From a virus, in IMG/VR virus record IMGVR_UViG_3300042691_019772, positions 1-33,118 of that record: a stretch of DNA of 33,118 nucleotides; one strand, given 5' to 3'. Under the pieces are notes generated by a model that worked only from the letters and a program-made list of their open reading frames with translations, was not told the DNA's origin and ran no database searches. The translations under genes were made by a program, and so were the position numbers. Numbering within the stretch: the first letter of the stretch is position 1; each line of letters starts with the position of its first letter. Of this stretch, positions 3,559 through 6,586 are shown one piece after another.

Positions 3559-4587
3559 ATGGCAGTTTGGAAAAAAGTCATAGTATCCGGTTCGGTAGCT
3601 GAACTAAATACCGTATCAGCATCATTAGCAGTAGTTGTTGGTGCAAATGGATACAATACAATAGGAACGAACCAATCAAATACGGTTCTATCTGGTTCAT
3701 TTACCGGTTCATTTGTCGGTGAAGGTAGTGGTTTGACAGGATTGGTATCAACTTTAAATATTAGTGGATCAGATGCATCAACTGGAACAGTTCAACTAAA
3801 AACTCAAAACTTAACCATTGATGGTGCATCTAATGAAATTAATACAACCGTAAGTGGTCAAACCGTAACGATTGGTTTAGTAGATAATCCTGTAATTACA
3901 GGTGATATCACAATCGGTGGTAATACAATTAGTTCATCAACTTCAACTGCGATAGAATTAAATGGCTCTGATGTTGAAGTAAGAGGAGATTTGCAAGTAA
4001 CAGGTAATGATATTAAATCATCAACTGGTGCAACTAATATTACTTTAACTGCTAATACATTAACTACTTTTGCGGGGGATATTAAAGTTAATGGAAATGA
4101 TATTAGTTCATCAACTGCAACTGCATTAACTTTAGATGGTGAAAATGTAAAAGTTGTTGGCGATTTAACCGTAGGTGGTAATGATATTAAATCTAGTACT
4201 AATGCAACTGCGATTACATTAAGTGGTGCAAATGTTAGTATGCCAGGTAATTTGAGTGTTTCTGGCGATTTAACAGTTGATGGTGATTTAACCTATCTGA
4301 ATGTAACCAATTTAGCAGTTGAAGATAAATTTATTCTTTTAAATAGTGGTTCGGCAAGTGCACCAGCGGAAGCGGGTATTATAGTTGATCAAGGTGGACA
4401 GAGTGGTTCAGCGTATGCGTGGGATGCAGGGCAAAGTAGATGGGGTTTCACTGGATCTTTAGCACACAATGCAACATCATTTGCACCAGATGCATTTGTG
4501 GCATCGGTAATTACATCTGATATTCCTGCGTATCAAAAAGTAGGAAATATAAGAGTTGAAAGTGGTGAAATTTATATATACGTTTAA
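3559..4587 (+). CDS. Tail fibre protein with WKKVIVSGS anchor and GNDIKSST repeats
   Basis: 342 residues. The N-terminus AVWKKVIVSGSVAEL is nearly the same as that of the fibre at 5084 and probably attaches the fibre to the baseplate or tail. Next comes a SGSFTGSFVGEGSGLTGL phrase. Residues about 110-235 hold four beta-repeat units of the form GD(I/L).V.GNDI.SST.AT.I/L.L.G (each about 30 residues), typical of a beta-helical shaft. The C-terminal part (VEDKFILLNSGSASAP, GGQSGSAYAWDAGQSRWGF) resembles the head-like module of other phage fibres. No enzymatic motif is visible. It is the first gene of a two-gene unit ending at the terminator at 4849-4881. Confidence 0.75.
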   Translation: MAVWKKVIVSGSVAELNTVSASLAVVVGANGYNTIGTNQSNTVLSGSFTGSFVGEGSGLTGLVSTLNISGSDASTGTVQLKTQNLTIDGASNEINTTVSGQTVTIGLVDNPVITGDITIGGNTISSSTSTAIELNGSDVEVRGDLQVTGNDIKSSTGATNITLTANTLTTFAGDIKVNGNDISSSTATALTLDGENVKVVGDLTVGGNDIKSSTNATAITLSGANVSMPGNLSVSGDLTVDGDLTYLNVTNLAVEDKFILLNSGSASAPAEAGIIVDQGGQSGSAYAWDAGQSRWGFTGSLAHNATSFAPDAFVASVITSDIPAYQKVGNIRVESGEIYIYV

Positions 4588-4605: not shown

Positions 4606-4857
4606 ATGGGAATTTTTACAAAAAACCAAAAGGTTGTACCTACTGAATTAGAAACAAAAAAAGAAGAGGTTCAACCGCAAGAAGAACAAGTTGTTGAACC
4701 AAAGAAACCAAAAAATGGTGGGGTTGATTTAACAATAGAAGAGTTTGAGTATCTCTTCAATCTAATTAAAAACTCAACATTTAAAGGTACTGAATTAGAA
4801 ATTATTTACAGTATCATTTTAAAATTACAAAAAAGATATTTAGAGAAGAAACAATAA
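4606..4857 (+). CDS. Small charged protein of unknown function
   Basis: 83 residues, not recognised. The first ~40 residues are low-complexity and highly charged (Lys, Glu, Gln, Pro; EVQPQEEQVVEPKKPK), so probably disordered. Residues 42-83 look like two amphipathic helices (LTIEEFEYLFNLI, LEIIYSIILKLQKRYLEKK). It follows the fibre at 3559 by 18 nt in the same unit, and its stop codon lies inside the stem of the rho-independent terminator. A fibre-assembly or accessory role is suggested only by position. Confidence 0.6.
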   Translation: MGIFTKNQKVVPTELETKKEEVQPQEEQVVEPKKPKNGGVDLTIEEFEYLFNLIKNSTFKGTELEIIYSIILKLQKRYLEKKQ

Positions 4858-4881
4858 CCAAAAGGTTATTGTTTTTTTTTT
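4849..4881 (+). terminator. Rho-independent terminator
   Basis: An 11-bp perfect stem (AAACAATAACC / GGTTATTGTTT) with an AAAA loop runs into an unbroken T tract to 4881. It ends the 3559-4857 unit and isolates the downstream RNA leader. Confidence 0.92.
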
Positions 4882-4900: not shown

Positions 4901-4910
4901 AATATTTATT
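4901..4910 (+). promoter_or_regulatory. Late-type motif AATATTTATT before the structured leader
   Basis: Nine of ten bases match AATATTTATA. Unlike the other copies it lies 173 nt from the next start codon (5084), with the structured RNA element between. Transcription starting just downstream would carry the whole element as a 5' leader. Confidence 0.5.
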
Positions 4911-4915
4911 GTTGA

Positions 4916-5058
4916 TATTGTTGGCCCGAAAGGGAAGTGGGCAGTCGATGTGATTGTATCCAACCGCGATAGAAAAAAGATTTATTTAAAAAGACTCATT
5001 TGGGGAAGACCCATGGTGTGTCATTCTTATATTCTATCGAACCCTTTTTCCAACGATA
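4916..5058 (+). ncRNA. Structured RNA leader (multi-helix) upstream of fibre gene 5084
   Basis: This GC-richer stretch can fold into a closed, branched structure. A closing helix of 9 bp pairs 4916-4924 with 5050-5058 (one G-U). A CCC-GAAA-GGG tetraloop hairpin lies at 4925-4934. A perfect 8-bp helix pairs CGATAGAA (4967-4974) with TTCTATCG (5032-5039). Inside it a hairpin at about 4993-5021 pairs GAC..CATT..GGG with CCC..GGTG..GTC around a GAAGA loop. GTTGG at 4920-4924 can instead pair with CCAAC at 4960-4964, so two mutually exclusive folds exist. CCCTTT at 5042-5047 is complementary to AAAGGG at 4929-4934, a possible pseudoknot or switch. There is no tRNA shape, and I do not match it to a known riboswitch or ribozyme. 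It may act in cis on the fibre mRNA or be a separate RNA. Confidence 0.6.
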
Positions 5059-5083
5059 CTAACCTCTCAAATTATAGTGTTAG

Positions 5084-6586
5084 ATGCCAAATTGGAAAAA
5101 AGTCATAGTAAGTGGTTCGGAAGCCTCACTTAGCAATTTAATAGTAGATAATAACGTATCCGCATCCATATTCTCAGGGAGTGCATTTAGCGGTTCATTT
5201 TATGGAGATGGTAGTAATTTATCTGGAATCATTGTAGATGATGGATTACCTGATAACAATTGGGATTTTAATATTCCTGATGAAACTCCTATAAATGATT
5301 TTTTAACTCAATCATTAGTTTATTTAATTGATTTTAATAACTTACCTTTAGTAGGAACTGAAGCAGGTAAAATTGGTTGGTTTGGTAATACTACCGGAGA
5401 AACTCAATTGATTCCTTCTAATACCGGATTGTATATTGTAGCGGGAGATTCAACCGTTGGATATATAACTACAAATGGATATAGTGGTAGTGTAGTTGGT
5501 ATAGGAAATGTAATGAATTTCAGTTCTTCAATAAATCAAAGAATTAATGATTTGGGAGGAGCAGGAGGAGTAGTATCTGGATCTCTACAAATAATAAATT
5601 TAGGATTTTTACAAACTTCATCATTTGTAGCAGTATCAGGGGCATTAGACACTCGATTGGATGTTTTGGAATCATACAGCGCATCACAACAAGTTCCTAC
5701 TTCATCATTCTCATTTAGAACTGCTCAAACTGATGTTTATTGTAAAAATTCATCTGGATATCAAATTGATAAAGGAATGGTAGTTAGAATCACTGGCTCA
5801 GTTGGTGATAATCCATTAATCGTAACTGCTAGTTGGAATAATGAATTAGGTTCTGCTAATACTTTAGGAATAGCTACTGAAACTATTGCAAATGATGCGT
5901 TTGGAATGGTAATTACCGAAGGTGTATTATTAGGGGTTGATACACAAGGAATGACTGCCGGTCAACTTATTTATTTAGGAGCAAATGGAGCTTTCACAAC
6001 AACTGTTCCAACCCCCCCATCTCATAGTGTAAGATTAGGAGAAGTATTAAGAGTACAACAAAATGCTGGCTCAATATATGTTAGAGTAGATAATGGTGCG
6101 GAACTAGAAGAATTGCATAATGTAATAGATACTTCTACTGATGCATCTTATGGTGATTTATTAGTAAAAAGCGGAAGTCTTTGGAAAAACTCTAAACAAT
6201 TGACAGGCCCATATGCTATAACAGGTTCTCATATTGTAACCGGAAGTTTAGTAGTAACGGGAAGTGTAGCCGGAAATGTTGTAGCATTAAGTGTGACAAG
6301 TGGAACTGCGAGTATTGATTTTAATAGAGGAACTTTCTTTACACTAACAATCCCTTCTTCATCTATAACTCATATAACTGCATCTAATATGCAACCAGGT
6401 TTAACTGCAAACATAGTATTAACTCAGCAGGCAACAACCGGAAGTGTGAGATGGGATAGTGGATTCAAATTTCCTTCTGGTTCATTCAATACCGGAAGTG
6501 CAAGTGGAAGTGCGGTAGATATAGTTTCAATGATGATGGTTAATAATTCAACAATCCTTTCAGTAGGAGCTAATAGAATACAATAA
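5084..6586 (+). CDS. Tail fibre protein with WKKVIVSGS anchor
   Basis: 500 residues. The N-terminus PNWKKVIVSGSEASL matches the 3559 fibre, and 19 bases are identical at DNA level, so both probably occupy the same attachment site. An SGSAFSGSFYGDGSNLSGI phrase follows. Residues about 215-345 form a beta module (KGMVVRITGSVGDNPLIV, LGIATETIANDAFGMVI, GQLIYLGANGAFTT, YVRVDNGAELEELHNVI) common in phage fibre shafts and tips. The C-terminus (TGSHIVTGSLVVTGSVAGN onwards) is repeat-like and beta-rich. It has an unusually long structured leader and overlaps the next gene by one base (TAATG). Confidence 0.75.
   Translation: MPNWKKVIVSGSEASLSNLIVDNNVSASIFSGSAFSGSFYGDGSNLSGIIVDDGLPDNNWDFNIPDETPINDFLTQSLVYLIDFNNLPLVGTEAGKIGWFGNTTGETQLIPSNTGLYIVAGDSTVGYITTNGYSGSVVGIGNVMNFSSSINQRINDLGGAGGVVSGSLQIINLGFLQTSSFVAVSGALDTRLDVLESYSASQQVPTSSFSFRTAQTDVYCKNSSGYQIDKGMVVRITGSVGDNPLIVTASWNNELGSANTLGIATETIANDAFGMVITEGVLLGVDTQGMTAGQLIYLGANGAFTTTVPTPPSHSVRLGEVLRVQQNAGSIYVRVDNGAELEELHNVIDTSTDASYGDLLVKSGSLWKNSKQLTGPYAITGSHIVTGSLVVTGSVAGNVVALSVTSGTASIDFNRGTFFTLTIPSSSITHITASNMQPGLTANIVLTQQATTGSVRWDSGFKFPSGSFNTGSASGSAVDIVSMMMVNNSTILSVGANRIQ

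Follow-up and report, generated by a model that had tools for sequence, protein, structure and literature searches.

The leader of a fibre-type gene in the phage contig studied here begins with a conserved three-way-junction RNA of about 50 nt, which precedes the same gene in a large family of phages, covaries in its helices, occurs once in each long record examined and lies close to the start codon in most members. The window, i.e., the whole stretch of DNA analysed, comprises positions 1-33,118 of the 33-kb virus contig IMGVR_UViG_3300042691_019772, which belongs to a contractile-tailed phage: it holds fibre-type genes and those of sheath, tube and baseplate hub. That the three-way junction is a real structured RNA appears to us practically certain, and with moderate confidence our analysis takes it for a new leader RNA that acts in cis and governs how translation of the late fibre-type gene is initiated. 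A cis-regulator of fibre expression, one of the readings offered in the preliminary description of this DNA, thus seems the best one, supported by covariation, gene specificity and position.

In the window, the leader is the stretch between a terminator-like hairpin with a T-run (4849-4878, plus strand), read directly in the sequence and closing the upstream unit after the open reading frame (ORF) at 4606-4857, and the ORF starting at 5084. The preliminary description had placed a terminator on one side of a structured leader and a late-type motif before it. This picture is borne out: besides the hairpin, a late-promoter-like ATATTTAT, a variant of the T4-type late promoter, was found at 4902-4909 (plus strand), eight of its nine plus-strand copies in the window lying upstream of ORFs, and the predicted fold of 4914-5060 (-44.5 kcal/mol) was equalled by none of 200 dinucleotide shuffles (z -3.5). 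The late-type motif is also enriched in the genome of Flavobacterium phage immuto (9 copies vs 3.0 expected), and in most family members having one it lies 10-19 nt 5' of the conserved core.

This core is described by the covariance model R1 (58 positions), whose sole significant match in the window covers 4915-4973 on the plus strand (65.2 bits, E 1e-22). It consists of P1, P2, a junction J2/3, a variable P3 and a junction J3/1. The 5' strand of P1, AUUGU followed by a bulged U (4922) and GG (4917-4924, plus strand), pairs through 4917-4921 and 4923-4924 with the 3' strand CC-G-CGAU (4964-4970, plus strand); family-wide, P1 shows an outer stem of at least four pairs, a single bulged base and GG/CC inside, its outer R-Y pair alternating between GC and AU and its inner G-C, otherwise nearly invariant, being A-U in immuto (L397). 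The GAAA tetraloop hairpin noticed previously is real and corresponds to P2, CCC-GAAA-GGG at 4925-4934 (plus strand), the third pair of which covaries between C-G and U-A; the family pattern is CCY/RGG, and 66 of the 90 four-base loops are GNRA. P3 (4938-4962, plus strand) has a UGG/CCA base, a G-U pair, a 2-nt bulge at 4958-4959 and a variable stem-loop, matching the family-wide succession of URG/CYA base, G-U, two-base bulge and variable stem-loop. According to the alignments, J2/3 is a conserved AAG (4935-4937, plus strand; GAG in a few members) and J3/1 a single A (4963, plus strand), so that the junction lengths of the core are 0 nt, AAG and A. The core is the minimum free energy (MFE) structure of the isolated 5' ~57 nt in all six members of the window subtype, and unaided single-sequence folding recovers on average 75% of the consensus pairs.

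An exact 25-mer of the leader was also detected in three other virus contigs with much shorter leaders, to which homology is restricted to the first ~57 nt of the window leader. Relatives were gathered by two DNA patterns, a variant pattern and an unbiased protein search, the query being residues 1-72 of the protein encoded downstream. R1 matches 53 of 54 sources in the mainly protein-selected set and all 97 pattern-selected loci; the core was found at 150 of the 151 homologous phage loci examined. At least 147 members are distinct, and as two of the pattern scans contributed just the matches listed, the family is larger than this. Each of the 150 elements precedes ATGCCNNNNTGG (ORF start MPxW) within 160 nt, and a single significant element was present in each of 18 long records of up to 187 kb as well as in the immuto genome. 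The carriers are aquatic phages, mostly uncultured; immuto is a cultured carrier, and the cultured phages searched revealed none besides its four records. Among genome contigs, the 50 loose pattern matches included just two, L356 and L391, that had a good score and were followed by an MPNWKK start; the other eight genomes tested for host or bacterial homologues gave no significant match. L391 stems from a Flavobacteriales MAG and L356 from a Pelagibacter MAG, and both are possibly binned phage contigs.

A structure set by hand on 30 aligned sequences leaves 95.8% of cells paired, and unaided RNAalifold returned the same fold. Of all pair cells in the protein-selected set, 95.9% are paired, and ten pairs show two-sided change, with 119 double compensatory changes vs 35 expected by shuffling; covariation was seen again in the pattern-selected set. 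Using a custom tree-based null on two alignments, A3 (the protein-selected set) and A4, the significant pairs fell inside the structure in four of four and seven of eight cases, respectively. The R-Y pair of P3 (A3 48-82) displays 33 GC, 18 AU and no mismatches and is significant against this null; in A4, the patterns used for searching constrain this pair in part. Columns 47 and 82 of A4, which hold the purine of P3 and the base bulged out ahead of CYA, covary outside the secondary structure, which may reflect a tertiary contact, possibly a base triple. The covariance analysis over related phages that had been suggested for the leader showed covariation in the three-way junction core.

The helices originally proposed for the leader, a 9-bp helix (4916-4924/5050-5058, one G-U) and an 8-bp helix (4967-4974/5032-5039), do exist as complementarities and appear in the single-sequence MFE, but they are not the structure conserved across the family. 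The leaders of the window subtype (six sequences) carry an insert of about 100-110 nt (4971-5083, plus strand), P1 being 109-121 nt away from the ATG vs a family median of 12. Among the six, both helices are conserved, but neither shows two-sided compensatory change; one pair of the 9-bp helix runs U-G/U-A/U.U, and the outermost pair of the 8-bp helix forms in two. The second CCAAC (5050-5054) sits inside the insert. In a two-state switch, GTTGG would pair with this second CCAAC while the 8-bp helix is formed. Such a fold comes out as the MFE of the complete window leader and as the consensus of all six sequences of the subtype, yet we regard the switch as improbable, given the lack of compensatory change, the absence of the insert with its two helices from the other 141 distinct relatives and the preference of the complete leader for the core over second-CCAAC pairing in two of six subtype members. 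A GTTGG/CCAAC switch is not a family-wide feature, shows no covariation and is conceivable in the window's own subtype only; the conserved P1 uses another register. GTTGG/CCAAC was also tried as P1 itself and rejected, 84.7% of helix cells being paired vs 93.9% for the final P1 and two of five pairs being broken in 8-15 of 30 sequences. With the core imposed in folding, UUUUUCCAA (5045-5053, plus strand) tends to pair around the AUG with UUGGAAAAA in the region of codons 4-6 (5092-5100), forming an extra hairpin that could enclose the start codon in this subtype; the complementarity is (near-)invariant in the six members and hence gives no covariation signal.

In agreement with the earlier impression that the leader fits no known class, Rfam 15 yielded no match at gathering score for the window and nine diverse relatives, and permissive scans of three core regions produced sub-threshold matches only, mostly to the AT-rich flank. 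No description of the element was found in the open-access literature. The glnA and Downstream-peptide glutamine riboswitches, which we take to resemble the core superficially in their three-stem layout and a GGAAGUAGG-like segment, were not among the Rfam matches up to E 10 or E 5, and the element matches neither model at any tested threshold. Hammerhead ribozymes possess the core CUGANGA...GAAA; the junctions of the element are 0 nt, AAG and A, and no hammerhead match was obtained for the window or the nine relatives. Beyond the compact structure, nothing speaks for a trans-acting, self-cleaving or packaged small RNA, the last two of which had been considered previously: every copy is linked to the same ORF start, the leaders read have no terminator between core and ORF, and no known ribozyme was matched, all of which makes such a role hardly credible. 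A metabolite-binding riboswitch would suit a compact junction with conserved unpaired bases, and aptamer-like RNAs (manA, wcaG) have been reported in T4-like cyanophages (PMC2864571); as the element serves a single structural gene and no metabolic ones, and as no riboswitch of Rfam was matched even when E-values were permissive, we consider it very improbable.

The putative regulated gene (5084-6586, plus strand; N-terminus MPNWKKVIVSGS) encodes a protein without PHROG match in the window. It is called a tail fibre because the immuto gene at the matching position is annotated as "putative tail fiber-like protein" and because downstream proteins of some members have S74 or tail-fibre matches. 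Residues 1-12 of the downstream proteins display 85% pairwise identity, residues 25-100 near 10%, and beyond residue 60 resemblance is limited to 688 of 5778 pairs; what is conserved across members is the element and the first ~12 protein residues, the remainder being highly variable. The element is not found upstream of the MAxWKK companion paralogues, which are located a short way upstream of the MP gene. In the window, this paralogue, MAVWKKVIVSGS (342 aa; 3559-4587, plus strand), has no element upstream and is separated from the element-bearing MP gene by a small ORF. A crude-pattern survey of paralogues scored some MP cases as "absent" that R1 does find, e.g., L112. Paralogous fibre-type pairs (window 3559-4587; L397:7275-8417) share the N-terminal tag WKKVIVSGS on otherwise unrelated bodies, and the tag may be a modular anchor.

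The small ORF in the window (4606-4857, plus strand) codes for an 83-aa protein, a predicted helical hairpin, and nearly all elements have a relative of it immediately upstream; an ORF of 50-110 aa is directly upstream in 132 of 139 members. Aligned, these small proteins form two related groups (hhalign E 1e-5, probability 83%), and the AlphaFold model reveals two helices (pLDDT about 95). PHROG gave no convincing match for the small protein and PDB sequence matches were uninformative; it is a candidate RNA partner or fibre chaperone. At two loci, another ORF lies between element and fibre gene. In L118 (1550-1795, minus strand), an 81-aa ORF, HNH endonuclease-like by eye, precedes the MPSWRK gene and starts where the fibre ATG normally sits, the element being intact. 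In L153 (10522-11247, minus strand), a 241-aa ORF is GIY-YIG endonuclease-like by eye, the ATG of the fibre gene is displaced and a TTG start is called; upstream, both groups of small hairpin proteins occur in tandem.

As the late-type motif lies 10-19 nt upstream of P1 in most members with one, the late transcript would, by analogy with T4 late promoters, start at about P1. The leader would then fold into the P1/P2/P3 junction during transcription, with the last helix ending ~12 nt before the AUG of the MP[N/S]WKK gene, in the landing zone of the 30S subunit; the P1-to-ATG distance is 7-25 nt (median 12), within the 30S footprint. A factor may recognise the junction AAG/A and the bulges of P1 and P3; it would probably be a protein and perhaps act autogenously. 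What the analysis shows directly is conservation, covariation, gene specificity, copy number and position, whereas regulation by the element is inferred. A transcript start near P1, as suggested by the late-type motif, would also suit a 5'-end stabiliser or processing element, the fold capping the 5' end, shielding it from RNases or directing them, and so setting mRNA life instead of ribosome access. For this a plain hairpin would suffice, however, and an element that keeps its junction bases, sits so near the AUG and is confined to one of the paralogues is more likely to be recognised specifically, so that this role seems unlikely.

Several T4 leaders offer comparisons. The pseudoknot in the T4-type gene 32 leader is an autogenous operator (PMC3014915); like our element, it is a structured RNA that has been conserved in the leader of a phage mRNA, at the 5' end (PMC3014915). 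It acts on translation of its own gene (PMC3014915), as the element is proposed to do, but it is located 67 nt upstream of a replication gene, whereas the element is a nested three-way junction ~12 nt before a fibre-type gene; by gene and by fold it is no gene 32 operator. The helices of T4 e, soc, 49 and I-TevI likewise lie near a T4-type late promoter and may occlude SD or AUG. In contrast to the element, whose presumed transcript would keep the whole fold and whose sequence is conserved across very distant phages, gene e late transcripts lose the 5' arm, in which the promoter lies. SD pairing in P1 is only slightly above control (p 0.026), with an SD-like sequence in 62 of 141, making SD sequestration weak as a general mechanism. 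T4 genes 25 and 38, with their split ribosome-binding sites, are likewise tail or fibre genes whose initiation region is structured; in these two, the helix separates SD from AUG, whereas any SD used with our element would be 3' of the fold. A translation enhancer bringing a distant signal near the AUG, as in genes 25 and 38, would have this T4-type precedent (PMC3014915) and would fit the many leaders lacking an SD-like sequence in the spacer. The position of the late-type motif leaves little room for an upstream SD, though, with few nucleotides expected 5' of P1 in the transcript and hence no general SD there, and GGAAG in P2/J2-3 would match the SD poorly and be too distant from the AUG; we think an enhancer quite unlikely.

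Translational control in cis may in part involve the start codon itself. In 34 of 147 members (about a quarter), the P3 loop reads GGCAU(AA), the reverse complement of AUGCC, and is kept while its stem changes. The GGCAU loop could pair with AUGCC, whereby the folded element would cover the start codon. It is usually placed in a 7-nt anticodon-like loop, and CAU in a seven-base loop presumably recalls the initiator anticodon loop; the invariant GG before CAU is predicted by pairing with AUGCC but not by tRNA mimicry. Spacers are longer in GGCAU-loop than in ordinary members (median 16 vs 11, p 9e-15), also within the R=A group (16 vs 12, p 4e-7), p-values that are to be read in light of the phylogenetic non-independence of loop classes and spacers; the three GGCAU-loop members with the other P3 base have spacers of 16, 16 and 22. 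A long P2 ending in a UGGY (UGGC-type) loop, which could pair with GCCA, occurs in 20 other members, in which codon 2 is always CCA, and the two loop classes never overlap. Loop classes and spacers would thus fit start-codon capture, while AUGCC is invariant and hence gives no covariation signal for its pairing with GGCAU. Such pairing is not general, since ~60% of members have neither loop, and simple steric blocking does not apply to the window subtype with its P1 109-121 nt from the AUG. We put forward only tentatively, as rather doubtful, a new class of junction RNA in which a hairpin loop captures the start codon of one host-recognition gene in cis, release being gated by a junction-bound factor, possibly the fibre or the small hairpin protein.

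Here, we have uncovered a widespread, strongly covarying RNA family without Rfam entry that is tied to a single fibre-type gene. The body of this gene varies strongly, in contrast to the RNA and the first ~12 residues, which remain constant. With immuto, a cultured carrier opens the family to experiment. The findings suggest that aquatic phages, most of them uncultured, control a probable host-recognition protein at the RNA level by a dedicated element, which probably sets the timing or amount of host-contact protein made.
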